A stretch of DNA of 64,000 nt, from the NCBI RefSeq assembly GCF_019649055.1, contig NW_026570246.1, positions 992,001-1,056,000 on the forward strand, in the 5' to 3' direction. Shown here one piece after another: positions 9,480 to 57,539 of the stretch (its first letter is position 1; each line of letters opens with the position of its first letter). The position numbers and the translations under genes were made by a program. The DNA is from Paramacrobiotus metropolitanus. Its lineage: Eukaryota > Tardigrada > Eutardigrada > Parachela > Macrobiotidae. The notes under the pieces were generated by a model, which made no database searches, had not been told where the DNA came from, and worked only from the letters and a program-made list of their open reading frames with translations.

Positions 9480-12400
9480 ATGGACCTCGATCGACTTCTG
9501 TCCAGATTTTCCTTTTTAATTTTTTCTGTATCATTTTTCCCTTTGTTGCCGGAGTGGATTTGACGCGTTCAAATACTGCCGGATATGGCAAGACCAGGTC
9601 AAAAGAGATGTCGGGTATGGCTGCACCCCCAGTGGGGCCGCCAGTCCCGCCTATACCTCCTATTCCGCTAATGGAAGATCCTGGAGCCAGGATGGCCCGG
9701 CCGCCAATGGAGCCCCCTTTCGGGCCGCCTGGTCCACCAAATTATATGGGAATGGGAGTGGATTTCGGACTCAACCCCCAGATGCCATCTGCATCCGGAC
9801 TAGAAGGATTTCCGTCAGCTCAACTCCAACAGGATTCTCCGCCTAATCGTAAGTTAGGATAACATAATATTGGCAGACGTTTACTGTTCAGTAAATTTAT
9901 TACAAACGCTTGAACTAGAAGTACAGTATAGCATTTTTTAACTCTTTAACAATTCAGATTTTTTATTTATTTGTGGACCATGGCAGATTCTGCACATCTG
10001 AAATTTTCATGTATTATATTTCAACAACAAAGTAGCAGTATGGGTTATGTAAAAATTTTTGTTGGAGGTTGTGTAATTACTTTCACTTGAATTGCTTTTC
10101 TCAGTGTTTCGAGTTCGATGTCTAGTGGTCAGTAGAAAGTAAGAATAATTGATACGGCGGGCAAGATAATAACACACCGGCCGCATAGCCTCCAGACACG
10201 TTACAAGGTCAATGGTCGAGAAGATGGTACGTTTTCATTTCCGTACCCCGGGCTGCGATCTTGAGATTTTCAAAATGGCGGCGTTAATCTTTGCATAAAT
10301 GGAACGAAGTTTTGAAGGTTATTTGAATTAATGATCTTAATGATTGGTAATCATAAGTGATTGCCCATATGTGTTTTAGAAGCACTGGATGAATATTCTT
10401 ATTCTTGTACAATACTATGGAAAAATCAGCACTGTAAAGTGTACAGACGTAGTCACAAAACATAAGTAACAAAAAAATTGATATGCAGTCTTTTTTAGGC
10501 GTACACGTTAAAACTTAACGAAACACTCTTGAGGAAATGAAACGCTCCTAAGATTTTTGAATACGCTCCCTCTGCTCAGTTCAATCTACATTTATCTACT
10601 CTAGTGCTTGATTTGAACAGAAGTCAGAAAGGCACAGAACGATTCACTTTATCTTCACCTTTGTTGCACAGTATTTTGTAATACTGTAGTTTGCCCGTAA
10701 TTTCCGATATCTCCATCTGAATGCTTAATTGTTTTTTATATTCAGAATACAGTTATCCCCAAAACTCGGGAATACCTCCAACTCGTAACGACGATCCGTA
10801 TGCGTACCCATACAACATGCCAAAACCGGCTGGACTGTACAGTCAAGGACCGGCCGAAAATCCAAATCCGCAACAGCTGACTTTGGGTGGATTTCCATAC
10901 GAAAAACCAGCCGACCACAATTCATACGATAGGTGAATTCATGAACCATAAATTACCTTCTGTATTAGCAATTCGCACTGATTTTTCTTACAATTATAAC
11001 TGTTGTGTACCTCGCTAACGAGGTCGCTCTGGCTAAATTCTTTTATTTTATCAGTTTCAGCCCTGTCACCCCACCGCCAGCAAATAACAACGGAGAATAC
11101 AGTTACGACTGGAGCTTTAATTCCAACGGCAACCAGCCAATATCCAACGGTTTGACAGCCGCAAATGCGGGCACCAACGACGATGTTTTAACCGTCCGAG
11201 ACCTGATGGCGTCACCGCCCCCTAAGGTCATGCCGCGGCAGTCGAAACCCGTGACCAAGCGCTGTGTTCCGGATGACATTGCTGGCTCAAGCGGGATTTG
11301 CGCGGCAAGATCCGCTCGGCGAGCAAAGTGCGGCGGACTGGTATCGTCCATGTCTAAAGACTGCGATAAAGACGAACTCTGCTGTTTCGCCATTAGACGG
11401 AATGGAACAATCATTTCAGTTTCTGTCAAGCAGTCACAGCGGCAGTGTGTTTCGGCAGTTGCTCCGAAAAACCCTGGGTTTTGTTCCGCTCAAGCAGACA
11501 GGCAAAAGAACTGTGCTGGCCTTGTTGCCAGCGGATCACCCGACTGCCCGGCTGGGCAGCTCTGTTGCTTTTCCGCTACACCAAGTTTGATTGAGATCCA
11601 GATCGTGGGTTCGACACCAAGACCGGCATTGACTGCCGAGACTGAAGAAACGGCATGCTTTCCCTCAATTAAACCGGAAGTTCAGGGAATCTGCGCCAAA
11701 CGGACGGTCCGACCTCAACGATGTCGCGGAATGCTCTCCGCGACATCGAATAACTGTCATCAAGATGAATTGTGCTGCTTCTTCCTGAATGGAACGAGTG
11801 CGTTCAAGCAGCAAATTTCGTCCATGCAGGCCAGCCAGTACGGTCAGGGCGGCGGCGGAACGTATTATCAAATACCGACAGCACCGACCACGACAACCAC
11901 AACGACGACAACGACATCGAGACAAACTGTGACCACGCCAACGACAACCACAACATATGGCGTAACATACGCGCCTAGTTGGAACCAGGGTGCGACCACG
12001 CCGTACTATTTCCCGTACAAGCCGGATCGACTGTGCATTCCGGCTACCAACTCGGCGATTTACGATGGCACTTGTGTCGCCGCGAGTATGATTCAGTATT
12101 TATGTTCCGGATTACAAGCGAGCTCATCACTTAATTGCGGCTTAAATGAGTACTGCTGTTACAGTAACAAGCAGACGCCAGCCCCATCAACACCATACGG
12201 CAACGGGTGTGTACCGGACAACAACCCGAATGTCGTCGATGGTTTCTGTACCGACGCCAATGACCTCTCAGCGAAATGCACTGGCATTTCGATCTCGACG
12301 TCTCGAGGCTGTGGTGTGACGCAGTTCTGCTGTTATAGCGGCAAGAATGTAATCGTACCCACACCCGGCTCGTACGGCCAACAACAACAAAGTTACGGTA

Positions 12401-15400
12401 TGTCGAATAACTATGGATACGGCACTCCGCCACCACCGCCAGGACCTCCTCAAAAGTGCGTTCCGGATGCTAACAAGGATATTGGCAATGGCAGTTGTGT
12501 AGCCTTCAGTCAAATTTCTCAGCAATGCAAAGGCATACAGATATCGACATCTCTGGACTGTGGCTACTCACAATACTGTTGCTACGTCCATCAGCCGGTA
12601 CAGCCACCACCATCTCGTTTAGGATGCATTCCCGAAAACAATCCAACTATCACGAATGGAACATGCATAGAGTCCACTGATCTGGCCACGTACTGCAAAG
12701 GCATGCAGATTTCAGTTTCACTGAACTGTCCCATAATGAGTTTGTGTTGTTATCCTCTTGCAATAAACACGTCACCACCGCCCACAATTACGCCATCTCC
12801 ACCCACCACAACGCCGTATTACGTAACGGGTTACCAAACGCCGTCGCCGCCTCCTGTTACCTACTCACCTCCGGCTGGTGGTTGTGTTCCGGATAACAAT
12901 CCCTCGGTGACAGGTGGTTCATGTGTCGCTCCTAGCCAGCTGACATCTTCGTGCAAAGGAATACAAATTGCGCCCTCTCGAGGGTGCCCACCTACGTATT
13001 TCTGTTGTTATACTTCCGGAACCACGGGTATCGTGTACACACCGAGCACGCCTTACTATACTCCGGTAACGCCTCCCTACACTCCGGCAACGCCTCCATA
13101 TGTCACTCAAACAACGTCCACCACCACCACGAGCACTACATCAGGGCTTCCCAGTCGTTGCTCACCGGACACGGCGCCTTCTGCTAACAATGGAAAATGC
13201 ATCGACACAGACCAGCTGTCTACTCAGTGCAAGGGTATCAATATTGCGACCTCGCGAGACTGTCCGATAACGTCGCTGTGTTGCTTTAACGCTAGTGACC
13301 TTGGAGTGGTCACTGGTACTACTGCATCTTACACGTACCCCACCCCAATGGCGACTACGACAACAATGCGACCAACTACCACATCAGCATATTACACACC
13401 GGCCCCGTCGCCGCCGCCGACAGTGACCCCGTCACCTCCACCGGTAACGGATTCTTATTACAACAACTACAAACCTACTGGCTCGCCCTATGTTGCCACA
13501 CCGGCGCCGGTGGCCAACCGTTCGTGCAGTCCGCAAAGTAATCGTCAGATTAAGAACGGATTTTGTGTTTCCAACACCGACATCAGTCAAAAATGCCGCG
13601 GAATCCAAATCTCCCCCTCCCTGGATTGCTTGGGCGAAGAATATTGCTGCTACCAGTCGCCGGACGTCCTGGATGTGCGACCTGGTGGAGCCTGTATCCC
13701 ACAGTCGAATCCCAAAATTCTCAACGGCGTTTGCGTTGATTCCGACCAGATTGGCGTGTCCTGCAAGGGCGTTCAGATGTCCACTTCGCGGAACTGCAAA
13801 CCAACGCAGTTCTGCTGTTTTAATACAAACGACGCTTATGCATGGGGATACGGGTACCAGACTCCGTCGCAGTACTCTAGCAATCGCCAGCGGTTACCGG
13901 CGGGTTCCTGCAAACCTAACGGCCGCGACAGCGATAGCATCAACGGTATCTGTGTCGAGACCAGTGATATTATGGTGGCATGCAAACAGTGGCAAGTAGC
14001 CAGATCAAACGACTGCCAGTCATCGCAGTACTGCTGCTTTTCCGAAGACAAAGATGTCTCCGTGAGAGTACAGCGTCCTCAGCAGTTGCCCAACAGAGAT
14101 GCGGTTCTACTGGCTCTGGCATCGAATTCACAAAATGGCAATTATTATGCTCCACCAGCCATAACCCAGGCGCCTCCGAGTTACTATCCGGCATATTCAG
14201 ACAGCACACCGGCACCACCAACATCACCAACCACGAGCTATACCCCTGCACCCACCACAGCGTCCACAACCACTCGTCCTACGTCCACTCCTGCCTACAC
14301 TCCTCCATCTATCACCACACCAACAACCGCCCCACAAACACCAGCGCCAAGTCGCAGCTGTCGTCCGATGAGCTACCCATCGATAAGCAATGGTATTTGC
14401 GTGGCGAGTTCCCAGATAGGTCAAGCTTGTTCAGGTAAGCAGCACGCGCCGCCGTTAACAATATTTGTCGGCATGAAGATCATATTATGTCACTTCTGTA
14501 GGCATTCAAGTCTCCCCGTCTTTGAATTGCTATGGATCAGAACTGTGCTGTTTTACAAGCCCGACGCTGCCTCCTCCAACGGCCGCCCCGAGTGCCTGCT
14601 CGCCGGAAACTAACCCAGAAATTACCAATGGTCAGTGCGTAAACTCTGATGCCCTTTCCAGCACCTGCGCCGGTCGACAGATGGGTAATTCGAGAAACTG
14701 CCAGATTGGTCAGTTATGTTGTTTTGGCACAAATGGACAGCCAACAGGATCCACAGGTTCAACAAACCCATACACTCCACCTACCGTTACACCAACAGTC
14801 ACGGTGACACCAATGACAACATATGGATACACGACGGCTCCAGCTACCACGACTACGCCCACGACAACCACCACTAAAACTACCACTACAACTACACCGT
14901 CCTATACGCCTGCACCAACTCCACCTCCGCCACCACCAACCACCGCACCATACTACAGCTACAATAATAACGACAATACCGGCACGCCTCCAACCGGTAG
15001 TACTATGTGCATTCCCGACTCGACGCCCATAGTCAACAACGGTTTCTGTGTGGATCAAAGTAACTTAGCGGACTCCTGCCGCGGCATTCAGATCTCCACG
15101 TCCCGTCAGTGCGGAATCGGCCGATTCTGCTGCTTCACCTTAAAAGACAGTACCGTCACCGTGACACCTACTGTGACACCAAATACACCTGTCTATACTC
15201 CCACTCCAAGTACCACTGTCTACACTCCCCCTCCGACCTCACCAACCTCGTCAACCACAACTCCGACGACCACATCCACTACAACGACCACGACGTCCAC
15301 GACTACCACGACACCAAGCACTGTCACGACCGCAGCCTACACATATCCAACTAACACGCCGACGACATCTCCCCGAACGCAAGTCTGCAACCCGCAGAGC

Positions 15401-16497
15401 GACACCAGTCCCAGCGCTCAGCAAGGTCTGTGTGTGGCGGCGGCTATGATATCTGTCGCCTGCAACGGCCTCCAGTTGTCCACTTCCTGCAGTGTGGATT
15501 TAATGAATATTGCTGTTACAAACCCACGGCGGTTGTCACGCCCTCCACCCCGTCAGCCGGATACTGTGTACCCGAAAATGACCTTTCCGTTAATAACGGC
15601 TTTTGCGTCAATACAAACCAGCTAGCCCAACGCTGCGCTGGAATCGAAATGTCCACATCACTCAACTGTGCTCTGGACCGAATGTGCTGTTATAACAAGA
15701 GCGCTGCAAGTGTGTCACCTAACAAATTCGCCGATGTAGTGCCAAAATCTGTGGACGTAATGAGCAAGGTTACAGCTCCCTGCACGCCAATTTCCGACAG
15801 TTCCCAGAGGGGCAGCTGTGTGCATAGATCGACACTGCCCGGTTCCTGCAAGAATAAACAGATGTCTATCTCGGGTGACTGTAACTCTGGAGAATTCTGT
15901 TGTTTTGACCGGTCGGCACCTCGCCTGAAGACCGAGTGCACACCCTTCTCGGATCCCTCGCAAAAAGGTTCATGTATCCAGTCGTCCCAAATCACAAGCA
16001 CATGCAAAAATATGCAAATGTCCAAATCCAGCGACTGCGGTGCTAGGGAATTCTGCTGCTTTGCACGAAATTTTGCCTCCAAAGCGGAATGTGTTCCGGA
16101 TTCGGATAAAGCGCAAAAAGGCACCTGTGCACTGAAGTCCAACCTACCCACCGTGTGCAAGAATATGCAGATGTCCATGTCGGGTGACTGTGCCGCGGAA
16201 GAATTCTGCTGCTTCTCCAGACTGGATTCCCGTAGTGATGTGAGCAGTCAGAGCTTCTGTTCGCCGGACACCAGCCCGGAAATCAGTAACGGATTCTGCA
16301 CGGATCCCGCGACAGTGGCCACCAGCTGCCAAGGAGGAGAAGCAGCGACGTCGCGGAATTGTGCCGATGATCAGCTGTGTTGTTTCAGAAGGGACGCTGT
16401 TGTGCCCGCTGGTCGGGATGATGCGGGAAACGCGGAATCCGCTCCAGCAGTGGATGACGTAGCAGCCGAACCGGTCAGCTGGCCTAGGTCTTTGTAA
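9480..16497 (+). CDS. Cys-rich gene A: secreted protein with 21 six-Cys modules
   Basis: Exons 9480-9848, 10746-10932, 11055-14434 and 14502-16497 join in frame except for two single-base breaks, giving about 1,977 residues. The N-terminus is hydrophobic like a signal peptide, but the ATG at 9480 is one base out of frame with the hydrophobic tail and exon remainder. A second break is at 15486-15487, inside module 16, where one missing C restores the module. After a Pro-rich region come 21 modules of the form C-x12-C-x9-C-x10-C-x5-CC. They are separated by Pro/Thr/Tyr-rich linkers, including Thr runs typical of mucin O-glycosylation. Modules 18-20 are closely related and have short linkers. 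No transmembrane segment is seen and the end is acidic. Function unknown; an extracellular structural or matrix role is inferred. It lies upstream of, and parallel to, its larger paralogue gene B. A true pseudogene is the alternative to sequence error for the breaks. Confidence 0.85.
14827..15375 (+). repeat. Thr/Pro-rich linker tracts in gene A
   Basis: Two stretches (about 14827-14935 and 15160-15375) encode nearly uninterrupted Thr, Pro and Ser, from ACN and CCN codon runs with slippage-prone ACC/ACA/ACG repeats. They flank module 15 and resemble mucin domains. A similar shorter tract lies at about 11880-11960. Confidence 0.8.
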
Positions 16498-16661
16498 AAA
16501 CTTCTACCCTCCGCATGCACAAAACGTCGAACGATATTCGTAAATTCTTTCGTGATGATCATGTTCTGCTGATTTGTTAGCCTGTTTGTTTTCGTTTCCC
16601 ATTTCCCAAAGATTTTTCCGGTTTGTTGTATGATCTTAAATTGTCGTTGTTTTTACTCGTA

Positions 16662-16667
16662 AATAAA
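16662..16667 (+). promoter_or_regulatory. Polyadenylation signal AATAAA for gene A
   Basis: A canonical AATAAA lies 165 bases after the gene A stop, followed by a T-rich stretch, consistent with the 3' end of its transcript. Confidence 0.7.
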
Positions 16668-19600: not shown

Positions 19601-20815
19601 CCGCCTCTTGACCTACATGTTCCAGTCAGGTTTGATGGTGTAATCTATAAACAAAAACCACAAATGCATAACAAAAACGTGTGCCGGAACGCGAAATAGC
19701 CGAGCGGCAGTGGAAAAAGCTTCAAGGTCGAACGCCAATCATGAGTCAATTATGCATAAATTAACGTCATATTAAAATTTCATCAAAAGGTTATGGTGTA
19801 ATACGCCGCTCTACAGAGTAGTACCGTGACTACTGAACCAGCTCAAGCAAGTTGTGAATCGCATCGATATGGTCCACACGTACAATACGTACTGGTTTTG
19901 ACCTAATGCACAATAACGCATTTCATTAAGACCAATTAAAAATGTGCATTCACAGAAAGCAAAATAATTGTAATTATTTTGTTAAAATACACTGAATCGA
20001 CATGTGATCACAGTTTCGCCGATATGTGGATACGGAGACGATCGTTAGCTACTATTAGGTGGACGTCCGCGCCATACTTAACGATAATTCATTCCTTTAG
20101 TAATCAAAGCGATAAGGAAGGGATGCTGCAGATAGTAGGATCATTAACATTATTATCGCTGAAATAGGGTTTAACAAAACAGCAGCGTAACAGAAACGAA
20201 ATCTGGGTACTGAATGACTGTTGATCTACCTATTATATGGATCGAGAAGTTATAAATCCGTACATACTTTAACTTCTTTCAGTGCACTTTTTTGATTTGC
20301 CCACTTAAAACACCTTTAAGAAATCCTCGGTGTCTGCATCACGGCGAAGATGCCAGCAAAGAAGTGACATATATCTATGTAGCAAAAGTTGTTATTTTTT
20401 GCCGCTCGTACATGAACTTTAGATCATCGTCCTCGGGCGTGAAACATGATTCGTTCAATACACAAGTGTCATTTACTTCCTTTTCGGACTGACTACGTCG
20501 TGGTGGCTCGTTAGTCTCTTCGCATTCATCGCTACCATCAATACACTAGCCGGTAGCCAGTATTCTCATGATCATCCATTTTGTTATTATTACCATCAAT
20601 ATGTCTTTTTCACGAAATTTTTACGTTTTCTAATTTTCTCGTAGAAGGTCTCGTTTCTTGACAACTGATCTCTCGCATCGGAGCCGCCGCGTGCATTCGG
20701 CACTCTTAAGTGCTTCTGTCGACCTTGATTACCGCTTGGACACTTAAGGTTACACCGGTAACATCAGTCCAATTTCGTCCGGATAATACGGCTGCCGCGG
20801 GACCGCGTCCTCATA
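16668..20815. other. Intergenic between Cys-rich genes A and B
   Basis: About 4.1 kb, AT-rich, with no recognisable exon, RNA gene or transposon on either strand. The few short reading frames have no domain or splice support. The promoter of gene B should lie at its 3' side; no specific element was identified. Confidence 0.5.
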
Positions 20816-23800
20816 ATGGCCGGTCGGACAGGGTCACTGACAATACTGTCTGCTATCCTTATCCAATGGTATGGGAGGGCAGCAGGGCAACTTGGTTTTC
20901 AGATTGGGAATAATGGCGGTCCGATGCGGAGTGACCGCTCATACGGTGATCCCGGCATATCCACAGGATATAAGAGCTCAGTGGCAGCAAATCCCTTTAT
21001 GAATTATCCTAATACGGATCAAATGAATTTTAGTAAGTCCTACTTGCGATTAAACATTCAATTAGTTTGTTTGTTTACCCCATAGTGATCAGTTTAAATC
21101 AATTAATGCCCGTGTATTAATAATCGTATTTCATGGTAATTATTTTATCGCACATATGCTACACTGAGTAAACTCTTTCCGCGAATTTTTTTGCGCTACA
21201 GTTTTAACCAAATTTCTACACCAGATGGCTTCAAATACAAAAAGACATTTCCACTAACATTTTCACAAAATAGTTCTGAACAATTAGAACGTACGCTTTT
21301 CGGTTTTAATGTAGGGTAACCGGTAAGAGATCTCGAAATTTGAGTTTTTTCTCGACAGAAGCTTTGGTACATTAAATTATATTAAGTAATGGCTTGGATA
21401 GAAATCTATTCAAAATAAGTACAAACGTAGAAGAAGCATCTACGATTTTACAAATATCAAGAGTCCAAACTATCTGTCTATTCTATCTTCAACTCTTTCT
21501 ACAGTCTATTAACAGGAGATGAGAAATACATTATGATAGCTTTCAAAAACGTAATTCTGAGAGAATAAAAAGTAGGTGAACCAGTCGGCAGAAGCCTAAC
21601 TGCTTTGAAAATGATTGGCAGACCACACGGTTGTTGAACTTGAACTTCGTAGGTTGTCCTGCAAAATATGCAATTTTGACTTCCGATGTAGCAGACGTCC
21701 ACTACTGCTAATAAAATACATACAGAATATGAATATGCGAATATGGCCTGTTATTTACTTACAAAAGAATATTAAATTAGACAAGTACTATATTATAATT
21801 TTGTTGGCGTTTTGTTAAGCGAACCTCTAATTGACAAATGATAACGATGACGTTCCGCTAAATATGGTAAGTACAATGAAAATCATCGGTGACTCAAGTA
21901 TCATGCTACTAAACACTGCAATGCATACAGTGCAATAAATAATTGCACTGAAAATATTTAACGATAACTAATAACGATACATTAGTAAACGACAAAAAGT
22001 ATGTTCTAATGAATGTATTTCATAAACCGGTGAATTTGGTTTAGTTTTGAATAAGCTACTATCTGCAGTAGTTATCACGGTTTAAGGCCTACTAGTACAC
22101 GACAGCGCGTTATGCTACAAATTACGTGTTAATTAATGGGCATTTTACAAAATAGCAGTACTCGTATACAGTATTACAATTTTATAAATCATCAACGTTC
22201 GGAGTCTGTATCAAGTTAAACCCGTGTAAAGTCAAAACAAATCCTGAGTACTGTTAAAGAAGTTCTCCTCCGGCTTGTATCTGAATATAGTTTATAAATA
22301 TTACCACTACAAACTGACTAAGCCAGCATTTGACGCTCGAATCCGTCGCAACACAAATTCATAATATTGTGATATCAACCAGACCGTTTGATTCATTTGA
22401 TTCGACACTAAGCACAAATTATTAAAAATTTATAAAAAACATGCAAGATATACTTTAAGAAATCGATCGGACTACAGCGCAGAATGTCTAAAGTTGTACA
22501 TCTTGGAATTCTTTTTGCAGATCTTCCTGGAGCGCCTCTGCCTCCCGAACCTCCCGCGTTGGGCGGTGGAGGCAGCTACATGCCCTCCGTATTCGGATCA
22601 AATCCCATGAGCGGATACGGTGGCTACGGAGGTGGCGATTCGTACAACAGCGGAGGTTACGGCAACAACGGTATGAACGGATGGGGCAATAGCGGCGGAA
22701 ATAATTATGCCCAAGGCAACCAAGCCAACAGCTATCAATCGCAAAATCAAGGCTCATCGACATCGTACGGCACTGGATCCAACGGTGCCAACACGAAGCA
22801 GAACAACAAGCAGCCACCAGCGCCCAGCAACACCGCCAACAAAGAGGCCGCCAAACCGAATCCCGTGCCGGCCGCCATCTCAGCGAAACCGAAAGACTGC
22901 AACCCGGAAAACCTGCCCAATGTACAGGGCGTGTGCGTGCTGCGGAATCAGATTCAACGAAAGTGTAAAAATTTGCAACAGGGTATTTCTCTGGATTGTT
23001 CCGGTAAAGAGCTGTGCTGTTACAACCCGGACAATGTGGTTACCACCAGCGCCCCGCCCACGGCGGCCGTTACCACTCCGCCCATTTCACGCTTGTCGGC
23101 GCTGGGCCAGACAGCGGAGAACGGCGATCTGGTTGACCGATTCTGTATTCCGGATGCCAATACGAATATTCCCGACGGAATTTGCGTGGCGGCGTCGGAA
23201 GTGTCCAATCGGTGCAGTGCGAAAATGTCCACATCCACCAATTGTAATCCCGGTGAAAGCTGCTGTTACAGTGATACCACATCTAAGCAGGCTGTCGGTT
23301 CCAGTAGCTATAATAATTACTACACCGTTATGACAATGGGCACCACGACCAGTAGTTCCACATCCACGGCCAGTAATACGCGCCTGTGCAGTCCGGGCAG
23401 CTATCCGACCATCACCAACGGCGTCTGCACACCATCCTCCCAGATCGCCCAGAGCTGTAAGGGCAAACAGATTTCCCCGTCGATTGACTGCCAGAATAAT
23501 CAGTACTGCTGTTTTGTCGCCGATTCACCGAACGGTGGGCTCAATTTACCGGCCGGCTCATGTTCACCGGCTAGTAATCCGGTTATCGCCAATGGTGCTT
23601 GCGTGGAATCGAATAGCATCGCCAGACAATGCCCAGGAATGCTGGTGTCCACATCGCTGAATTGCCAGGCCACCCAATTGTGCTGTTTCATTATGCCGGC
23701 AACAGTGCCGACAACGAGCACCACCACGACCACTCGTGCTCCAACGACGACAACGACCACCACACCTGCCGTGGTAACGGGACCGGCATCAACAACCACA

Positions 23801-26800: not shown

Positions 26801-29800
26801 AAGGTACTTGTTGGAGCAGCTCGGCAATGTCGCAGTACTGCAGCAACCAGCAAATGTCAGCGTCCAGTGACTGTCTCAGCGGTGAATTCTGCTGCTTCAT
26901 GCCGGGCACTAGCACGACCAGCACTAGCACCACAACGCCCACTACAACGACCACCAGACCTACAACGACGACTAGCACGACCACGCCCACTACCACCACC
27001 ACAACAACAACGCCCACAACTACAACCACCACTAGCACAACAACAACCCGGACAACCACACCAACAACAACTACATCCACGACGACCACGTCCACTACAA
27101 CGCCGACGACGACGCGAACGACCACCACACCCACAACTACCACCTCTACCACCACAACGCCTACGACCACCACCTACACAACGCCGACCACAACCCGAAC
27201 AACGACACCAGCAACGGTGTTGACAACCACCCCGTATAGCAGTGGTAAGGCGTGCAAACCGCAAGGTTCCACGAGTGTGATTGTGGGTAAATGTGTCAAT
27301 AACGCCCTTGTGTCCCAACAATGCTTCACTAACCAACTCGCGCTATCCCTTGATTGCGGTTACAATGAATACTGCTGTTTCCCGTCGACAGGCTACCCGG
27401 TTTATAGCAACATGACCAACAAGGTGCTGCTAACCAGTCTGAACAGCGTGGGCGGTTGTAGTCCACAAACCGCGCCCTGGGTGTCAAATGGACGCTGCGT
27501 CAACGTTAAACGGCTGACCTCTGACTGCAGAGGTCAGCGCATTGCCAAATCACTGAACTGTCCGTCCAGCGAACATTTCTGCTGCTTTGTCGATGCTCAG
27601 TCTGTTGACGGATCAAACCCTCCACCACAACGGGAATCCTTACCACAGACTGGAGGTTGTACACCGGTGACCGAACCATCGGTGACGAATGGCGCTTGTG
27701 TGCACACTTCACTGCTCGCCAGCCGGTGTCGTGCACAGCGCATCTCCCGGTCCGACTCTTGCCAGAAGTCCGAGCTGTGCTGTTTCGTTACACCAAGCGA
27801 AGGGTCACCAGATCAAGCGAAGGTCACATCACCCAAAGAAACATTCGTGAATCAGCCAGATCAAAATAACGTCATCGTGGCTCCGCCGAAGGAGACTCCA
27901 TTCGGTGTGAAACTCTGCTCGCCTTCAACGTCACCGTCGGTAACCAACGGCATCTGCACTGTAGCTAACCGATTGCAAACCCATTGTGTCGGAATGGTGT
28001 TTGCCAAATCAAGCGCATGCAGCGTCAATGAGTTCTGCTGCTTTAACCGTCCGACTGAAAAGGAAGTTCCAGCAGCCTCGTGTACACCAAACACCCAACC
28101 CCTAATTAACAACGGCGCGTGTATCGCCTTTGACCAACTGACTAGTCGATGCCGCGGCATGACCTTTTCAAAATCTGCCGACTGTGCTGCTCAGCAGTTT
28201 TGCTGCTTCAACTCGGACACCAACAAACAAGCCAACGACCAAAACCGGCTCGGTTCTTCGGAATCCTGTAGTCCCAAGAGTGCCCCCGAAATTACCAACG
28301 GCCGCTGTGTTGCGACCAACTTATTAACATCCCAGTGTCGCGGAATGCGATTGTCCAAATCCGATAATTGTCCTCAGAACCAGTTCTGCTGCTTTTCCAC
28401 TCAACCTCAAATTATTACAGCGCCGAAACAGGAAATTTCGGTTACGTCATGCACGCCCAATACCCAGCCGGACATTCATGACGGTTTCTGTGCCGAGCTG
28501 AATCAGCTTAGCACCCGCTGTCGTTCCAAGACGTTTGCAAAATCTTCCAGTTGCCCATCTAACCAATTCTGCTGTTTCAACGCAGTATCAACGGCTGATG
28601 TAGGGAACAAAGCAGGTGAAAATGGGCAATGCACACCGCGCAGCCAACCACAGCTTGTTAACGGCGGTGTCTGCGTGGACCAATCGATGGTGGTTAACCA
28701 GTGCCGAGGTCAACGGTTGTCGCAGTCTGCCGACTGCGGTCAAAGCCAGTTTTGTTGTTTCAATCCGAACGCTATCCAACAGCCACCATCACCACCAACA
28801 AAACAAGTTATCCAGAGCGCCACCTGCACACCTTTAACGGAGCCCAGCATCCACGATGGAAAGTGCACCGATCGCAGCATGCTTATCGCCTCCTGCACTG
28901 GGCAGAGGTTTGCCAAGTCAAACGACTGTCCTGGCACTCAATTCTGCTGTTTCTCTTTGCCATCACCCGATGAAGCAGAAAAGATATCTTCCGGTGGCAA
29001 GTGTACTCCGGCCAGTGAACCAAGCGTGAAAGATGGCACTTGTCTCACTCTCAACCAACTGACCACTTCGTGTCAAGGCGGACGACTGTCCAAATCGGCC
29101 GACTGTGGAATGAATCAGTTCTGTTGTTTCCAGGTAAGTAATTTGTGCAGTAATTTATGACTTTATCCGCAATTTGCGCAATAATTCATAACTTTACTCC
29201 GTGTTGCGGTCATACTGTAGTCATTGTTTTATTTAGGCCAGCGCGGCCCAGGTGACACAACCGCAAGAAGTTAAAAAAATAAAGCCGGACAGCGGCTCCG
29301 CCTGTCGACCGGCAACCAATCCTGACGTAAGCAACGGATTCTGCTTGAATGCCAACCAGTTTTCTTCCAACTGTTCGGGAGGATTCTTGTCGAAATCCAG
29401 CGACTGTGACAACGGACAATTCTGCTGCTTCAATCGTCCACAAGAGGCTCAGGTTAGTTGAAAATGCATGTTTTTTTAATCTACGGCGTGACGCAGAAGC
29501 GCGCATGTCTAAATATACTACTGCTATTGTAGCCGACAGCTGCGCCAGTAATTCAAGAGGTCAAGAAGGTCTCCGTTGACGTCCATAATTGCCGACCTTC
29601 TTCGAATCCAGAAGTAATAAACGGCGTGTGTTTGGCGCCCAACCAACTGACTGCTGAGTGTGCTGGTGGCGCTTTCTCCAAATCTGGCGACTGTGAACGA
29701 GGACAGTTTTGCTGCTTCCGACGACCTAACAAGCTCATAGTCGAAGTTATGAATCGTCCTCGTGAACTCTGCGTACCAGACTCCGATCCCACCGGTTCCG

Positions 29801-32800
29801 GCGAATGTGTGGACAAAGGTCAACTGGTGGACCGCTGCCAAGCCCGTCGCATGGCCCGCTCGAAACAGTGTGGTCCCAACCAGTTCTGTTGCTTCGATTT
29901 GGACGCGAACGAATCAAAGGTCAAACAGATGCCGTCGGGAAGCTGCACACCCATGACCGATCCCACTGTGACGAATGGAGTATGCCTCAACCGCGTCCAA
30001 CTGACCACTGCATGCGGTGGTAACCGGTTTGCCAAATCCGTTCAGTGCCGTGGTGACCAGTACTGCTGCTTCCCGCAAGCTAGCAATATCACCGTCCAGG
30101 AGACCTCTCTGAGCCAGGTGAACAGTCGCTGCAGCCCAAATTCCGATCCATCGGTCACCAACGGCGCTTGCGTAGAACTGACTCAGCTCAGTCAGCAATG
30201 CGGAAACCGCCGTCTGTCCAAGTCGAACGACTGCGGCGCGAATCAGTTCTGCTGCTTTGACCTGCCCAATCAGGATGTGAAAGAGCAACCGAGCCCCGCA
30301 GCAACACCATGCACGCCGAACAGTGACCCGTCAATTAATAACGGCGTTTGTCTAGCTCGCAGTCAACTGATGACCCAGTGTCAAGGTCAGCTGGCCTCCA
30401 AATCGGTGCAGTGTGCATCCGATCAGTTCTGCTGTTTCTCACGCGATTCAACGGCATCCAAGAAGTCCGTTCTAGCCGGCTTGGCGTCGTGCAGTCCATT
30501 AAGCGATCCAGCCATTACGAACGGTGTCTGCCTAAATATCCGCGAAGTTTCACAGCAATGCGTCAATAAATTCACGGCAAAATCAAACGATTGTGGTACA
30601 GACCAGTGGTGCTGCTTTGACCGAACAACTGACAAGCAGTCGGCAGGAAATCCCGCACCTGCAACGTGTACTCCTTCCACCGATCCGACGGTTACGAATG
30701 GTGTCTGCCTGAATCTGCGTGACATATCGCTGCAGTGCGTTAACAAACTTACCGCAAAATCCAGTAACTGTGCTGCAGATCAGTTCTGCTGTTTTGACCA
30801 GCCAAGTGGTACCGGTAACCAGGCGTCCGGAATTACATTTACGCCCAACACACCTTTGCCCCCCAACACGCCTTCACCTCAGTCACCAACCAGTACTACG
30901 CAACCTCCAAATACTGCCACAAACACTCCAGTGCCTCCCACACAATCACCAACATCACCGCCGATTTCCGCTCTGCAGTCATGCAGTCCATCAACCGACC
31001 CCACCATCACAAACGGTGCCTGCATGACCCTCCGACAAATCGCCCAGAACTGCGCCAATATGCTGACCACGTCGTCGAAAGACTGCGCATCCGGTCAATT
31101 TTGCTGTTTCGCCCCATCTGGAACCAAGAGTGCGCTGAACCTCAACAAACTGGGAATGGATACCGGCTGTAGTCCGGCCAATGATCCAACCGTTAACGGG
31201 TCATGCATGACCGTCCGCGAGATGGCTACCCAGTGCGTGAACAAACCAGCAGCAAAATCGAGCGATTGCGCGCAAGGCCAGTTCTGCTGCTTCGATCAAC
31301 GCGATATGAGCGCAGTGCCTCCGTCAGGAACGAAATCCTGCAGTCCGTCAACCGATCCCACAATAACCAACGGCACTTGCTTAATCCTCAAAGATATTGC
31401 AAAGAAGTGCCAAAACATGCTGACGACATCGTCCACAGATTGCCCGACCAGCCAGTTTTGCTGTTTCGCTCCAACCACAGCCGGAAAGAGCGCCCAAAAA
31501 CCAGACAAAGTTGCAGTTACTAAAGGCTGCACCCCGCTGAGTGAGCCAGACATCCACAACGGTGTGTGCCTGAATCTCAAGGAGCTCTCGCAACAGTGCA
31601 AAAATCACTTGGCGTCCAAGTCGAACGACTGCGCAGACAACGAATTCTGTTGCTTTACACGAGATGCCGAAAAGACCCAAGTAGGATTGCCCCAGTTGGC
31701 GTCATCACAGAATGCCTGCTCACCGAAAACTGACCCCTCCGTTACCAACGGATTCTGCCTCGAGGCCGGTCAGTTGGCGATGAACTGTCAAGGCCAGAGT
31801 TTCGCCAAATCCGACCAGTGTGGTCAATCACAGTTTTGCTGTTTCCACCGTACCGAGAACAGCGAAAAAGAAGCCGCACTGCAAAGCGTCCAGTGCACAC
31901 CAAACAGTGAACCACAGGCGACCGGCACGTGCGTTGAACGAAATCAGTTGACCGAAAAGTGCGCAAATTCGAAATTATCCAAATCAAGCAACTGCACAGC
32001 CAGTCAGTTTTGTTGCTTCAGCAATCAACCAGTCAACATCAAGATTTCCACCGGTGGATGCAAACCGTTGACTGACCCCAGCATCAATGATGGCACCTGC
32101 GTGGATGTTTTCCAGCTGTCCGCCCAATGTGCTGATAAACGATTCTCAAAATCAAATGACTGCCAAGATGGGGAATTTTGCTGTTTTGCTCAAGAACCCG
32201 CAGTTGTCGTTAACCGCAACAAGGACGCCACAAAATGCTCGCCTGTCATGGATCCGAGCAATAAAAATGGCTGGTGTGCGGATCAAGACCAGCTGTCAGA
32301 TTCCTGCAAAGGAAGCCGAGTGTCCACTTCCAGTGACTGCGCACCAGGTAAGAAAGCAACTAACAGAATCTGATAATAGCAGAAGCTAACTTTCCTCAAA
32401 AGTATAATTCAGTTATTAATCGCTATTATTATTTTGTGTTTTATTTTTTTTATGGTTTAGCTAGAGTCAGATAAAATAGAACTAAAATAAATGTGCGATG
32501 AAACCACAAATTAGCGTAATGACGAATTGAGCTACAACTGTCAAAATACGAGTACAACTTATATGTATGCATTACTGACGTTTTACGTTGTACATTTCAG
32601 ACCAGTTTTGCTGCTTTTCTAACGGACGACCACTGCAAATCCTGCTGCCACCACTTGCAGCCCATCCACTGAGCCGGGAATTACCAATGGAAACTGCGTC
32701 AACAAAGACTTGCTACCCACTCAGTGCAACGGCATGACCTTTGCTCGATCTTTCAACTGCCCGACGGATTCCATGTGCTGCTTCCAGAGTCATCAGTCGT

Positions 32801-35800
32801 TGACGTCGATCAAGCAGTCGGTCACTAATACTGGAGGCTGCACGCCTGTTACCGAGCCCGACATTCACAATGGGCAGTGCCGCAACAAGAACGAACTAGT
32901 AACGCAGTGTGAGTCGCAGCGCTTCGCCAAATCCAGCAACTGCGCCGCCGACCAGTTCTGCTGTTTTGCGCCGCCGTCTGTACAATGCACACCGTCTACC
33001 GCACCGAGCGTTAACAATGGCGTCTGCGTCAACAAAGGCGACCTTTCAAAACAGTGCAAAAATCAAGCCTTCTCCAAATCGTCTAACTGCAGTTCTAGTG
33101 CCGATCAGTTCTGCTGTTTTGACCGCACCAGTGTTAAAAATATGGCGGTTTCCGGTGGTAATTGCGTGCCTAATACCGACAAATCGGTCATCGATGGCGT
33201 TTGCCTGAACCCGGATCAACTGACAGGACAGTGTATTAACGGAAGGTTCTCGAAATCCGACAACTGCGACGACAACCAGTTCTGTTGTTTTGACAACGGA
33301 GCGTCCGATAAGGGAACAGCGTCTGCAGGTTGCAGTCCAGCAACAGAACCGGATGTCACGAATGGTGTCTGCGTCAACAGGAATCAACTAACATCGCAGT
33401 GTGGTACCAAGCGATTCGCAAAGTCTACCGGGTGCTCACCTGACCAGTTCTGTTGCTTTGATACGCCCACCGCTGCTAAGTCTACTGGGCAGTGCACACC
33501 TAACTCGCAGCCAACGATCAACACCGGTACTTGCATAAACCGAGGCGATCTCACAACGCAGTGCAAGAACAACAAAGCCTTCTCAAAATCAGTTAACTGC
33601 AGCGACGATCAGTTCTGCTGCTTCGATGCGTCAAACATTGCCAACAAACTGGAAACCGGCACGGCGATGTGTTCGCCCAACACGGCACCGGATGTCAAAA
33701 ATGGAATGTGCGTCGATAAATCACAGTTGCATTCCCAATGCAACGATTTACGCATTTCCAAATCCTCCCAATGTTCCAGTGAACAGTTCTGCTGCTTCGA
33801 AGGAGACCGACTGCTGCCGGATGTCGTTATTGCGCCCAAGACTCGTGTGTGTCGTCCATCGAGCGACCCGGCTTCCAGCGGCAAATGCGTGGCTCGCAGT
33901 AACCTCATGGACAAATGTGGATCGATGACCTTTTCAAAATCGGGAGACTGTTCGCCTGATGAATTCTGCTGTTTTGAAAACAACGTGAAACAGATTGCCT
34001 TACAGACGTGCTCGCCTAGCAGCGACACCTCGGTTCACGATGGCTGGTGTGTGGCGAAAGGCGATCTCCAGACTGACTGTGAAAATGCCAGGGTGTCTAA
34101 ATCAGGCGACTGCCGGCAAGGTATTGACATAATTTACAATTAACCTGCGCGTAACATTGCGTCATTACTTATCAGTGGCATATTAATAAATTTATTTGAA
34201 CCACAAACTTTACAAATAATTTACGATTGTTTATTTATTTACTGGTATTTTTACTACGTAATCATTTAACGCAGACTGTCTGAGAATGAATGTTACATAA
34301 ATATGAATTTTGAACAAAATTCGTTCTTATTTACACAGATCACTGGTGCTGCTTCAAAGGCCACCTCGAATCATCCTCTCCCAAGATCGAAGTACCACAT
34401 TCATGCACTCCTATTGTGGAGCCGACTCTCAACAATGGCACATGCGTTGAGAAGGAACGCCTGCGTGAGCAATGCTCTGACCGTTCATTCTCCCGGTCCA
34501 CCGACTGCAAGATTGGTCAAATGTGCTGTTTCAATCGTCTGGGTCTGGACGGACAGAAGGAAACCGTGCAGAGCACTTGCACACCGGCCAGCGCCCCTGA
34601 TGTGCACAACGGCTTGTGCTTGAACCCCGACCAACTGTCCACTCAGTGTATGGGGCAGCGCTTCTCCAAATCCAACGACTGTGGCCGCCAACAGTTCTGC
34701 TGCTTCGCCAATCCTGAACCAGACGTTGCGTGCACACCGATCACGGAACCAACGGTCACCAACGGCACGTGTGCCAGTTCGGCCGAGCTCGCCACGAAAT
34801 GCGCCGATCTGGTTTTTGCCAAATCGGACAACTGTGACAAGCAGGATTTCTGCTGCTTTACCAACCCAGTCAGCCGCTTGAAGGTGCCGACTCTGATCGC
34901 CGGCAGCTGCAGTCCCAATTCGGAGCCGCAGGTCACCAACGGAGTGTGCACCAATATTCGGGATCTGAAGGAGAAATGCGGGACGCAACGGCTGTCAAAG
35001 TCCATCAACTGCGCCGACAATCAATTCTGCTGTTTTGCCAGTCAAGACGACAAAACGACCGTTAAAATGCAGCAGTCTGGTAGCGCTTGCATACCCACCA
35101 GCAGTCCCAACACGAAGGAGGGCACATGCCTGAACCTGGACCAGATCACCACGCAGTGCCAGAATAAACGATTGTCCAAATCACCAAACTGTAATTCCCA
35201 GCAATTCTGCTGCTTCACAGCTGAGACAAAAGAGAGCACCAACCAAAGGTCACCGTGCGTACCGAACAGCGATACTACCATCAACAATGGTCAGTGTATG
35301 CCGTTGGAACTCCTTGAAAGCCAGTGTCAGGGAATGTCCTTGTCGAAATCAGAAAACTGCCCGATCGAAGAATTCTGCTGTTTCAACCGCAATATGCAGA
35401 ATAAGCAGTCGCCGCCGGATTTCGTGCCAACCGGCTCACCAACCCTGGGCTCGCCCACACCGCCTCCACCGCAAGAGAACACCACGGTAACCTTGGTGGG
35501 TTCCCTGTCCGGTGCCGGATGCAGTCCCAACAATCATCCGGATGTGACCAGTGGTACGTGCATTCCGGCCAACAGTGTCGCAGCACGCTGTGCCGGCAAA
35601 CAGTTTGATCGGTCTAAAGGTTGCGCCGACGACAATGTCTGCTGCTATACTCCGACCAGCAACACTGAGTCCATTCAGACTGCCAACCAGTGTGCGCCGG
35701 AAACCGACCCAACGATTACCAATGGAGTCTGCTTGGATGAATCACAGCTGGCAGCACAATGTGCGGGCCGCTCTTTCGCCAGATCTTTCAACTGCGCAAC

Positions 35801-38800
35801 TGGTCAGAAATGTTGTTTTGATCGCAACAACAAGAAGGACAAAATCTCAACTGACCCTGATACTTCCGGCTTGCAGGTAATTATAATGTTGTGACCTTGC
35901 TACTATGGGGCGAATGCGCACTTATCATTCCAACTTAACACTACAGTGAAATACATACTGCATTTATATCCGTACTAGGTACAATAAGAATATTGTATTT
36001 TATTGAAATTCTATTATATCGTACATTTGGTGCCATGTGGTTTACGAATGCGCTAATTACAGGTCGCTCCGGCAGTTTCCGGTATACGCTGCAGTCCTAA
36101 CAGCCAGCCCGAAGTAACAAACGGCACATGCATGAAGGTTCGCGATCTCCGAATGAACTGCCTGGAAAAGCGTGCATCGCCATCCGAAGACTGTCCGCGC
36201 TTTAGTTGGTGCTGTTTCGACGCGCCATCCTCCACGAACGAAATCGTTGCACTGGCGACAACAACAACAACAGCGCAGCCAGCATTGACAGTCAGTCCGA
36301 ACCGCGAACAAGTGGCCAGCTCCGCACCGCTGTGCATCCCGATGAGCAGTCCATTCTCCAACGGATTCTGCTTGAACATGGACAAGGTCAACACCCAATG
36401 TCAGGGTCAGCGTCTCTCAAAATCAGTTAACTGTGCCAAGGAGCAGTTCTGCTGCTTCCAGACCGAACCGGACAAGGAACAGCAGCTGCAAGTAGAACAG
36501 CGGGCCATGTGCATCCCCAGCAGTGACCCCACGGTGGTCGGAGGGCGATGTACCAACGCGAAAGATCTGGCTAACGCATGTGCCAATCAAGCTCTGTCGA
36601 AATCGGAGAACTGCGAGGCCGATCAGTTCTGCTGCTTTACCCGAGCAGAAACGGTAGCACAGAACAAGGTCACCACCGCCGGGTGTAGTCCGAGCACCGA
36701 GTCATCCGTGATCAACGGCACGTGCTTGGATGCCAATCAGCTAGTCCAGCAATGCTCCACGAAACGCTTTGCCAAATCGCAGAACTGTGCCACCAATCAG
36801 TTCTGTTGTTTTGATATGCCGACATCCGTGGGCGGACAGTGCGTACCAGAAACCGACGCCAGCGTGACCAATGGTCAGTGCGTGGGGACAAATCAGCTGT
36901 CAGCGCAGTGCGCATCGAAATCGTTTGCCCGATCGGCTAATTGTGCTATCAACGAGAAGTGCTGTTTCGACCGCAGCAGTACTTCTAACAAGATTCTCCT
37001 GCTCCCAGCCGGCACATGCAGTCCATCAACGGATCCATCGGTCACAAGTGGCGTGTGCTTGAACGTCGATCAGTTGACGGCTCAATGTGGCACCAGTGAT
37101 AAGCGCTTCTCCAAATCCGAGAACTGCAACAACGACCAGTTCTGTTGTTTCGGCAATGAAGACAACAAGATAGCCGGACGCGGGTGCAGTCCCAAATCCG
37201 AACCGCAAATCAATAACGGCAGTTGTCTGGATGTCAACCAGCTAGTGGGTCAGTGCCGCGGAAAAGCCTTCTCCAAGTCACAAGACTGCGATGCCGGTCA
37301 GTTCTGCTGTTTTGACCTTTCACAGGCCATGAGCGGGACGCAGTGCTCACCGCAAACCGAACCTGCTTCAAAGGGCATGTGTGTCAGCGAGACCCAGCTG
37401 AACAGTCAATGCGGTTCAAAATTCTTCTCCCGCTCATCCCAGTGCGGCGACAGAGAGATGTGTTGTTTTGATCGGGTAGCTGATAAGCAGAACGTCGCGG
37501 GATGTAGTCCAGTTACGAATCCTGCCGTCACAAATGGCGCTTGTTTGACACGCAACCAACTAACACCGATGTGTTCCAACAAGCGCTTCGCGAAGTCTCA
37601 GAATTGCCCGAGTGATCAGTTCTGCTGTTTTGATGCTGCGGCTTCAACCTCGTCTGGAGGGCAATGCATTCCGGAAACCAACCCGACGGCCAGTGGTCAG
37701 TGCATCGCAACTGCTCAGCTCTCCGCCCAGTGCGCATCCAAGACATTCTCGCGCTCTTCAAATTGCGGCAGCAACGAGAAATGCTGCTTTGACCGTACAG
37801 CAACGAAAGTGGACGCCACATCAGCTGCCCAGTGTTCACCGGAAACAGATCCCAGCATCACCGACGGTGCCTGTCTGGATAAGAGCCAACTGGTCACTCA
37901 GTGCAGCGGTAAATCGTTTGCTCGATCCTTCAACTGCGGTAGCAGTCAGGTCTGCTGCTTCGATCGTAATACCCAACCGGTAAAGGTGAAGCTGGTAGTC
38001 GGCACATGCCGCCCGTCCACCGATCCGACCGTCATGAACGGTGCGTGCCTCAATGTCGACCAACTGACCACTCAGTGCGGCAGCAGCGACAAACGCTTCT
38101 CCAAATCCGATGACTGCGGTAGCGACCAGTTCTGCTGTTTTGGCAACGAGAACGCCGATAAGGCCACTGGAAGCTGCAGTCCCGTCACCGAGCCGGCAAT
38201 CACCAACGGTACCTGCCTGAACGCTAACCAACTGACGGCGCAGTGCAGTGCCAAACGCTTCTCCAAGTCTAAAGACTGCGATACCAACCAGTTCTGCTGT
38301 TTCGATGGGGTTAACCAGGCTTCGTCCAGTCAGTGCTCTCCGCAAACCGCCCCAACGGTCACCAATGGAGTCTGTGTCAACAAGGATCAACTGTCCAGTC
38401 AATGCGGATCGCGCTTCTTCTCCCAATCGTCCAATTGCGGCAGCGGCCAAATGTGCTGCTTTGACCGCGAGGCAACCAAGATCGCCGTCGGAGGATGCAG
38501 TCCCAGTGTCAACCCTTCGGTGACCAATGGTACCTGTTTAAACAAAGACCAACTAGCGCCACAGTGCGGTGCTAAACGCTTTGCCAAATCAACCGGATGT
38601 GCGGATGACCAATTCTGCTGTTACGATTTCGGCAACGTCGAGTCGATACCGGCGGCGTCGCAGTGCGTGCCGGAAACCGACGCGAGCGTTATGGACGGAA
38701 CCTGCGTACCGAATAACCAATTAAACCAACAATGTGGCTCGAAATCCTTCGCCCGGTCTTTCAACTGCGCATCGAACGAAAAGTGCTGCTTCAACCGCAA

Positions 38801-40235
38801 CAAGGTCGCGGATGGCGTTACCGGCAGCGGATGCAGTCCGATGACAAATCCTTCCGTCACCAACGGCACCTGTCTGAACAAGGACCAATTGCCCTCACAG
38901 TGTGCCGCCAAGCGATTCGCTAAATCCACCGGATGTGCGGACGATCAGTTCTGCTGTTTCGATTTCGGAAGTGTCCAGTCCGTGCAGTCCGCATCGCAAT
39001 GTGTACCGGAAACCGACCCGTCAGTAACAGATGGAAAGTGCGTGGCCAGTGATCAGCTGACGGCGCAGTGCGGCACCAAGTCATTCGCCCGGTCGTTCAA
39101 CTGTGCCCAAAACGAGAAGTGCTGTTTCGATCGCAATAAAGTCTCAACCGGGGTTAAAATCGACTTTGTCAACGGTAGCAACATCAACCTGCAAGTTGCT
39201 CACTGCACACCGAACAGCGAGCCGACCATCAACAATGGAATCTGTCTCAACGTCCGGGAACTTTCCGTGCACTGCGTCGACAAGTTCGCATCGCCGTCAC
39301 CAGATTGTCCGCGCCTCAGCTGGTGCTGCTTTGAAAATCCTAATGCAAAGGGCACCGAGAACACCGACACTCCCAATACTGATGGCAACCGCCAACAGAC
39401 CACGAAATCCTGCACGCCGAACAGTGACCCTACCGTTCACGATGGTATGTGTGTTCAGCGAGGTCAATTGAACACGGTGTGCCGTGGGGGACGATCGGGC
39501 AAGTCACCGGACTGCGCCAGCTCCGAGTTCTGCTGCTTCAACATCACTGTCGCCACCGACGCAGTCAAACTACCGCCGCTCCCGTCCTGCACACCCAATA
39601 CCGACTCCTCCGTCCACGATGGTCAGTGTATGAAGATGCGCGAGTTAAGCGTCAACTGTATCGATCGACGCGCCGCACCCTCGCTGGACTGCGCCTTCGG
39701 GCAGTGGTGCTGCTTTGGTGAATCAACAAGCGACAACACCTCTCCCGCTCCGGTTACCGACACCGTGGTCGTGGAACCCACCGTGGAGACTCCCGACTCG
39801 TGCGCTCCTAACAAGAACAAAGCGCTGCGCGGGCAGTGCATGACCTTACGGGACATCAACGCCAACTGTACTGACCGGCAAGCCGGTCCCTCGGAAGACT
39901 GCGAATTTGGTACCTGGTGCTGTTATGTGGAACCCGGTAAGAAATTCGTCACGGAGAAGGAGAGTATGCAGGCGGCGCCGGTGGTGGAGACACCGCAGGT
40001 GGTCGCTCAGGTCACAGCCGGACAGGCCTGTGTCCCTAACGCCGATCCCAATGCCACAGACGGAACATGTATGCCAACCAAAGATCTCAGGATAAAGTGC
40101 CGGAACCGTCGGGTGTCTAAGTCACCGCAGTGTAAATTAGGCCACTGGTGCTGCTTTGCTTCAGCGGAGCCGCTGGATTTTGCCGGCAATGTGTCACCGG
40201 TCGGGCGGAGTCTCAAGGGCCTCGGCACCCTGTAA
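20816..40235 (+). CDS. Cys-rich gene B: giant secreted protein with about 77 six-Cys modules
   Basis: Eleven exons: 20816-21032, 22521-24032, 24163-24516, 24584-24712, 25485-25985, 26063-29133, 29237-29452, 29533-32347, 32601-34120, 34339-35876 and 36063-40235. All junctions keep frame except one single-base break near 32624, so the product is about 5,348 residues. The ATG at 20816 opens a signal-peptide-like stretch (TILSAILIQW). A Gly/Asn/Ser-rich region follows, then about 77 modules of C-x12-C-x9-C-x10-C-x5-CC, about 460 Cys. Modules 1-12 have long Thr/Pro linkers and end mostly CCY or CCF. Later ones have short linkers, the motif (R/K)F(A/S)KS before Cys4, and end QFCCF. Modules 55, 73 and 75-77 have Trp just before CC. 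No transmembrane segment or catalytic motif is seen. Clip-like spacing is only a resemblance. A matrix, cuticle or secreted gel protein is the inferred role. Confidence 0.88.
26119..26258 (+). repeat. Coding minisatellite of Val-Thr-Gly units in gene B
   Basis: Nine-base units encode V-T-G, V-T-S and V-T-D about a dozen times in a row before module 9. The DNA repeats (for example GGAGTGACC alternating with GGCGTAACA) are imperfect, so the tract has aged or is held by selection on the amino-acid pattern. Confidence 0.85.
26906..27229 (+). repeat. Long Thr-rich mucin-like tract in gene B
   Basis: About 108 codons, mostly Thr with Pro, Ser and a few Arg, between modules 11 and 12. The DNA is a mixture of ACA, ACC and ACG codons. 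It is the longest linker in either gene and a likely dense O-glycosylation region. Confidence 0.88.
36838..39130 (+). repeat. Higher-order repeats of modules in last exon of gene B
   Basis: Modules beginning C-(V/I)-PET and ending NEKCCF start at 36840, 37665, 38664 and 39000, giving blocks of 825 bp (5 modules), 999 bp (6) and 336 bp (2). Members at matching block positions share subtype marks: SDKRFSKS, SKSQDCD or SKSKDCD, and EMCCFDR or QMCCFDR. Modules 69-70 and 71-72 are the closest pair. This points to stepwise multi-module duplication. Confidence 0.8.
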
Positions 40236-55405: not shown

Positions 55406-55469
55406 CTGCAAGTTGACTACTTAACACGGATGCAAGTAAAAGCTTTTATCGCAATGATAATGTACAAAC

Positions 55470-57453: not shown

Positions 57454-57539
57454 GGTTGGTGTGATAAGGACGGCAAAGCAGATGCCCAAAGTTATTTCTC
57501 GGTTATCTTCGCGATAATTCTGAGAAATCAATTTTGAGA

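Follow-up and report, generated by a model that had tools for sequence, protein, structure and literature searches.

Two tandem genes of a six-cysteine module

The analyzed stretch of the Paramacrobiotus metropolitanus genome (hereafter, the window) covers 64,000 nucleotides (C26:992001-1056000, in an assembly of 169.8 Mb and 533 contigs). It carries two tandem genes on the plus strand, gene A (~9480-16497) and gene B (~22521-40235), that encode long series of a cysteine-rich module of ~44 residues. A loose six-cysteine pattern, with the adjacency of Cys5 and Cys6 built in, detected 93 intact modules between 11263 and 40154, all of them on the plus strand. A chance pattern was rejected, as residue-shuffled plus-strand frames averaged 0.05 modules (20 shuffles); the one match on the minus strand was a Cys-rich frame with 13 Cys and is not a module. 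Together with four modules split by introns and one broken by a single-base frame break (~15395-15525), the total is 98, with 21 in gene A and 77 in gene B. This recount, based on hand-joined exons, reproduces the ~98 copies (21 and ~77) of the original prediction for this stretch.

The usual spacing of the window modules is C-x11/12-C-x9-C-x10-C-x5-CC, which is the previously proposed C-x12-C-x9-C-x10-C-x5-CC with small variation. Among the 93 intact modules, 11 to 13 residues separate Cys1 and Cys2, 9 to 12 separate Cys3 and Cys4, and 5 to 7 separate Cys4 and Cys5; the distance from Cys2 to Cys3 is 9 in every one. Across the 67 modules of regular length, neither the six Cys nor P3, G12, and S32 ever vary, and position 43 is always F or Y.

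The gene models were predicted by hand from GT-AG sites. Gene A starts with an exon comprising the start codon, a hydrophobic N-terminus read in two frames, and Pro-rich sequence (9480..9848), followed by a Pro/Asn/Tyr-rich exon with no Cys (10746..10932). The third exon (11055..14434; candidate acceptors give its start as 11055 or 11061) encodes 12 intact modules with Thr/Pro-rich linkers and the 5' part of the 13th, and the last exon (14502..16497) runs from the remainder of module 13 through module 21 to the stop codon. In gene B, the exon at 22521..24032 encodes 125 Gly/Tyr/Asn-rich N-terminal residues, then modules 1-4 and the beginning of module 5; the next (24163..24516) encodes the remainder of module 5 and module 6, and that at 24584..24712 a Thr-rich linker. 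Further exons hold two modules (25485..25985), 13 modules with long Thr-rich linkers at the 5' end (26063..29133), and one module (29237..29452). These are followed by 14 intact modules plus the larger part of a 15th (29533..32347), eight intact modules and most of a ninth in an exon that contains a frame break (32601..34120), the end of the split module with eight intact ones (34339..35876), and, in the last exon, 23 modules and the stop codon (36063..40235). Two of the introns split their modules at the identical place after Cys4 (exons ending at 32347 and 34120), as expected if an intron-bearing unit was duplicated. Counted without a signal exon, gene B has 5,274 residues (one X at the frame break) and 462 Cys, in line with the ~5,300 residues and ~460 Cys predicted before.

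Three frame breaks interrupt these models, at ~9510-9540 in the N-terminus of gene A, at ~15490 within one gene A module (the single-base break), and at ~32618-32623 in gene B. They are likely assembly indels, because the public P. metropolitanus assembly combines nanopore and Illumina data, according to PMC8277472. Gene B is open for 2,871 residues up to one break and for 2,402 residues after it, with no internal stop. Secreted-protein N-termini had been proposed for both genes. For gene A this holds in part, as the hydrophobic N-terminus is readable only across the first frame break; for gene B, no separate signal exon passed the filter in 17000-22520. Although an ATG at 22484 could supply a short hydrophobic N-terminus, the good acceptor at 22520 points to an exon of gene B further upstream. 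Secretion of the gene products is best supported by relatives elsewhere in the genome, in which a signal-like peptide (by eye) directly precedes the module.

All 462 Cys of gene B are located inside modules, and the 2,041 residues outside contain none. Likewise, the gene A module region has 126 of 126 Cys inside modules (one further Cys is in the hydrophobic N-terminus), and the largest related open frame on contig C1 (1,077 residues, seven modules) has 42 of 42. Several other frames on C1 and C14 have more than six Cys per recognized module, because they include signal-like peptides and modules cut by breaks or exon ends; we thus claim the confinement rule for gene B, the gene A module region, and the largest C1 frame. 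With all Cys within modules, each bead is probably self-contained and has no spare Cys for cross-linking, and the sequences make it most likely that the disulfides close each bead instead of linking chains. The gene B linkers are mucin-like (Thr/Ser/Pro/Gly-rich) near the N-terminus and short further on (median 17 residues). A dibasic pair was detected in 6 of 76 linkers, compared with 6.7 expected by shuffling, and a furin site in none of the 76.

The divergence between modules was evaluated using the 12 most similar pairs of equal length, which have only ~28 synonymous sites each, so that single values are rough. At protein identities of 68-86%, the proportion of differing synonymous sites (pS) was 0.66-1.00 and that of nonsynonymous sites (pN) was 0.08-0.22. 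Nearly saturated synonymous sites together with a conserved protein indicate an old array under purifying selection; a recently made or decaying array would not show such values. Similarity among the gene B modules is raised at offsets of 1-3, 5, and 6 (best at 2, z-score 6.3) and slightly at 18 (z-score 2.4), and a higher-order repeat unit was rejected because no single long period was found.

Searches for a described family and the predicted fold

Nine of the ten long module frames (all except 34314-35894) were searched against Pfam, and only chance-level matches were obtained (E-values of 0.12 to 0.34). No family was supported by a separate set of 77 single modules (46 from the window and 31 from other places, picked by eye for diversity), so that the Pfam part of the check proposed earlier gave no strong match of single modules to a described family. 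Ten Pfam families each matched one to three of these 77 modules in a scattered manner and were not adopted, among them DIKK1-2-4 (best E of 0.066 over three modules), EB at 0.022, and gamma-thionin at 0.014. NCBIfam had no matching family for three module frames, and a PDB sequence search with modules returned no supported match; the matches to the carboxypeptidase inhibitor 2k2z (E 4.1 and 0.56) and to 7ad7 (E 1.7) covered the C-terminal part alone and were regarded as chance. A single two-module query, able to detect close relatives only, revealed no prokaryotic or viral relatives. The module was not described among the best-ranked open-access literature on tardigrade clip domains, cysteine repeats, cuticle, and egg proteins, and the words "clip" and "cuticle" are absent from the main text of a tardigrade genome comparison (PMC5531438).

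Folding of a single module, as the original prediction had suggested, gave a confident AlphaFold2 model from an alignment of 92 of the 93 intact window modules (the module at 38832, a near copy of that at 38496, was omitted), with a predicted local distance difference test score (pLDDT) of 92.2 and a predicted template modeling score (pTM) of 0.66. The predicted elements are a strand at 13-16, a helix at 17-23, and strands at 28-30 and 39-43. A model of two linked modules (46 aligned pairs; pLDDT 86.1, lower in the linker; pTM 0.67) repeats these elements twice. Neither model had a Foldseek match in the PDB, clip structures included, at E up to 0.001, a search that is insensitive at this size, and none of the five Foldseek matches of the first model reached Z 2 when re-checked. 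For a predicted structure of 44 residues, the absence of a PDB fold match is weak evidence of a new fold. With no match in Pfam, NCBIfam, PDB sequences, or PDB folds, the earlier statement that the module is not recognized as a known family still stands.

Relatives in the genome and the comparison with clip domains

Relatives were sought by single-protein queries, whose counts are lower bounds, and with a profile built from the modules. Modules were found on at least eight contigs beyond that of the window (C1, C6, C14, C36, C62, C68, C102, and C107), in agreement with the proposal of an extracellular type of module expanded in this lineage, here within one genome. At C1:750-783 kb, tandem frames, some of them broken, have up to seven modules in a recurring order, and two copies have a signal-like peptide (by eye) immediately before module 1. 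The last three modules of gene B are each nearest to a C1 module. The final one has a normalized score of 0.79 with the module that closes a C1 gene, and no score above 0.51 with any window module; gene B thus looks like an expanded member of the C1 type. C14 has eight modules over two neighboring open frames, and a separate signal-like peptide is present in the second of these. C36:150500-157500 is a decayed partial copy of gene B, whose pieces match 35709-39678 of the window at 66-87% DNA identity and contain stops. C68 and C107 have one module each, following Thr-rich sequence. Near the single-module exons on C62, an 848-residue repetitive frame rich in Pro/Gln/Gly/Met (L011:3534-6077, minus strand) matched Pfam Keratin_B2_2 (E 2.4e-16), probably owing to its composition.

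A different arrangement was found at C102:106000-123000, where three tandem dioxygenase-like exon sets each follow a same-strand single-module exon with phase-1 ends (by eye) that finishes in a candidate splice donor. The intradiol dioxygenase family PF00775 was matched by three pieces from copies one and two (E 1.2e-8, 0.024, and 0.11) and not by the one piece scanned from the third copy. The phase-1 ends and the dioxygenase-like neighbors suggest that the module may move between genes.

Single modules also occur in front of S1 protease sequences at two places on C6. At C6:1602 kb, a single frame of 468 residues encodes one module together with a Gly-rich region, a linker Cys, and the beginning of a trypsin domain. 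This frame matches PF00089 at E 4.4e-7 and has TMPRSS2 as its top PDB match (E 1.8e-8, in the catalytic part); an Arg-Ile site is present. The next frame contains CALCLPE (PF00089 E 2.9e-10), and a third piece reads DGGSPL, with Gly for the catalytic Ser (PF00089 E 0.023, which fell below the cut-off). At C6:2121 kb, the module is succeeded by a linker Cys and an Arg-Ile site, and beyond an intron lie AAILVDGKYVCGG...TAGH and RICMPE, with one exon matching PF00089 at E 1.8e-10; the exon for the catalytic Ser was not found in the retrieved DNA. The two modules linked to proteases diverge from those of the window (window-profile scores of 16.9 and 34.3 bits), and both have 11 residues between Cys2 and Cys3. 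With the C6:1602 kb module alone as the query, C1 modules were found at a best E of 0.0013 and the C6:2121 kb module at 0.0115. The two loci are few among many proteases; a genome-wide trypsin search gave at least 158 matches with 150 of 449 candidates scored.

As a working definition, PMC1761132 takes as clip proteins those in which six Cys, the last two of them adjacent, precede an S1 domain. The 98 modules have the six Cys and the adjacent pair by construction of the pattern. The position N-terminal to an S1 domain was found in the two C6 relatives and not in the window genes. Because both relatives have this layout, they qualify as clip proteins by that rule, and the linker Cys, the CLP/CMP partner Cys, and the Arg-Ile site are present in both by sequence. 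In view of these two relatives, the original claim that the module is separate from clip domains is not supported as it was worded.

The claim of a different inner spacing, on the other hand, was borne out. Five residues separate Cys2 and Cys3 in all bee clips but one in the same source (PMC1761132), compared with nine in 93 of 93 window modules. The distance from Cys3 to Cys4 (9 to 12 in 93 of 93) falls within group 1 of that source (under 16; ~23 in group 2). The PDB clips 2ikd, 2ike, and 2xxl have a spacing of 9-5-23 to 29-8/9-0, as against 11/12-9-10-5-0 in the module. PF12032 (CLIP) and PF18322 (CLIP_1) had no match at E up to 10 in the nine window frames or the 77 modules. Genome-wide, PF12032 gave two weak places, with E 0.20 (called above the cut-off at 20 bits despite an internal stop) and 0.34, neither accepted as a canonical clip since no protease-like frame was seen by eye on the matched strand, and PF18322 gave one place at E 3.9. 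Copy number differs too, with up to 77 copies without a protease here and at most five clips in one bee protein as reported in PMC1761132.

The likenesses are a set of six Cys that closes with CC, a Pro located two or three positions past Cys1, and G-x-C at Cys2, in addition to the placement and linker features of the two C6 relatives. Clip domains pair their Cys 1-5, 2-4, and 3-6 and have a helix right after Cys2, where the model also predicts one for the module. When aligned with the three PDB clips, C1, P, G-x-C2, C4, and CC coincide, and Cys3 is shifted by four residues, which may correspond to about one turn of the predicted helix. Judged by its sequence, the module probably functions and is placed like a clip domain, yet we do not class it as one.

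Possible roles of the module proteins

We see about an even chance that genes A and B encode giant secreted scaffold proteins of clip-like beads that build or coat an apical extracellular matrix (aECM). Each ~44-residue bead would fold alone, sealed by three internal disulfides, and the beads would be threaded on mucin-like linkers near the N-terminus and on short linkers further on. The bead would be a clip-like extracellular domain that, as a single copy, serves as an N-terminal accessory domain of S1 proteases or their homologues and, by tandem amplification, gave rise to structural proteins. Self-sealed beads with no spare thiols would make a stable, extended string suited to an apical matrix such as cuticle, egg envelope, or gut/stylet lining, and the proteins may act there as long multivalent binding strings that resist chemical attack and proteolysis. 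The matrix, cuticle, or gel role of the original prediction may thus hold; its picture of a disulfide-rich matrix is modified, as intra-bead disulfides are likeliest with no Cys outside the gene B modules.

Several results weigh against the matrix scaffold. No chitin-binding or other known matrix domain was detected in the scanned frames of genes A and B; in particular, CBM_14 (peritrophin, PF01607) was not found in the nine window frames, and none of the matches listed from a genome-wide search (at least 126, with 150 of 177 candidates scored) lies in the window. To this are added the three frame breaks, the gene B signal peptide that was not located, and the lack of a clip structure among Foldseek matches. 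The clip relationship is also challenged by the weak to borderline profile alignment of the modules with the three PDB clips (hhalign probability 3.4%, score 13.3). In local mode, 200 Cys-fixed decoys had a 95th percentile of 12.8, a 99th of 15.3, and a maximum of 17.0, and in global mode the module-clip score fell inside the decoys. Moreover, both C6 protease loci were absent among the best trypsin matches listed.

The module may instead be an independent domain that merely resembles clip, its protease placement being a case of separate exon shuffling, which would be compatible with a matrix role. We regard this as a serious possibility, just short of even. It is favored by the Cys2-Cys3 distance of 9 (11 in the protease-linked modules) and not 5, by a Cys3-Cys4 distance of ~10 and not the 23 to 29 of 2ikd, 2ike, and 2xxl, by the silent Pfam CLIP models, by the weak profile score, and by the phase-1 module exons beside dioxygenase-like exons on C102. 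Against it, the module occupies the clip position together with the linker Cys, the Arg-Ile site, and the CLP/CMP partner Cys, its C1, P, G-x-C2, C4, and CC align with those of clips, and the genome search gave no convincing canonical clip. The use of this kind of module as the accessory domain of an S1 protease-like gene and of a Ser-to-Gly protease homologue would also fit an immune or clotting scaffold. Multivalent clip-like strings would then bind microbes in the body fluid or recruit cascades of proteases, the type of cascade in which clip proteins take part (PMC1761132). We consider this unlikely, since mucin-like linkers, a Gly/Tyr-rich N-terminus, and 77-fold repetition are generally commoner in matrix proteins, and no catalytic domain was matched by Pfam in the nine window module frames.

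A precursor cleaved into many small peptides (inhibitors or antimicrobials) could be imagined from the short single-module frames on C102. Those exons, however, are closed by a candidate splice donor, and dibasic and furin sites are not enriched in the gene B linkers, which makes such a precursor very improbable. Even less credible is an assembly artefact or decaying repeat array: the frame breaks and the clearly decayed gene B copy on C36 point that way, but module pairs nearly saturated at synonymous sites with conserved protein, and the long open stretches around one gene B break, do not agree with it.

A small disulfide-rich module is also repeated in long series in CREMP, the cysteine-rich protein of an extracellular structure, the eggshell membrane of birds and lizards; a four-module fragment of it unfolds on reduction (PMC3068167). 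Its module (C-x4-C-x5-C-x8-C-x6) differs, and the likeness is an analogy with no sequence relation claimed. Another analogous system is the nematode cysteine-cradle domain (PF23626), a lineage-specific Cys domain of secreted, partly low-complexity cuticle proteins, which has four Cys and is helical; one such aECM protein links matrix damage to immunity (PMC11925461). PF23626 had no match in the Pfam scans of the nine window frames and 77 modules.

To our knowledge, the proteins that make up tardigrade body surfaces, cuticle and egg shell among them, are little known. The family provides concrete candidates of extreme size for tardigrade surface proteins, with the unusual rule of Cys only inside beads, and offers a clue to how clip domains arose, as a clip-like domain may accompany proteases and also make matrix. 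It is conceivable, though doubtful, that in the tardigrade lineage this module both replaced clip as the regulatory domain of the extracellular serine-protease pathway and, amplified up to 77-fold, became the principal bead of a giant matrix protein sealed by cysteines. If so, immune signaling and body-surface or egg material would share one domain, and a matrix without free thiols could be tuned to survive drying.

Upstream of gene A, the window contains a mariner/Mos1-type transposase frame (5164-6243, minus strand; HTH_48 E 3.6e-10, Transposase_1 E 3.1e-6). On the other side, the arrays adjoin ordinary genes at 42088-49502, including a CSN8/PSMD8/EIF3K-family exon (minus strand, E 2.9e-15) and an exportin-7-like exon (46507-46938, plus strand, E 2.6e-17), beyond which CRM1_C is weakly matched (E 0.0025). 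At 55097-57300 on the minus strand, a Plus-3 domain exon (E 1.4e-8) is close to an ABC-transporter piece (E 7.6e-5), and one short peptide from the Plus-3 frame is found again at 57334-57675, hinting at local duplication.

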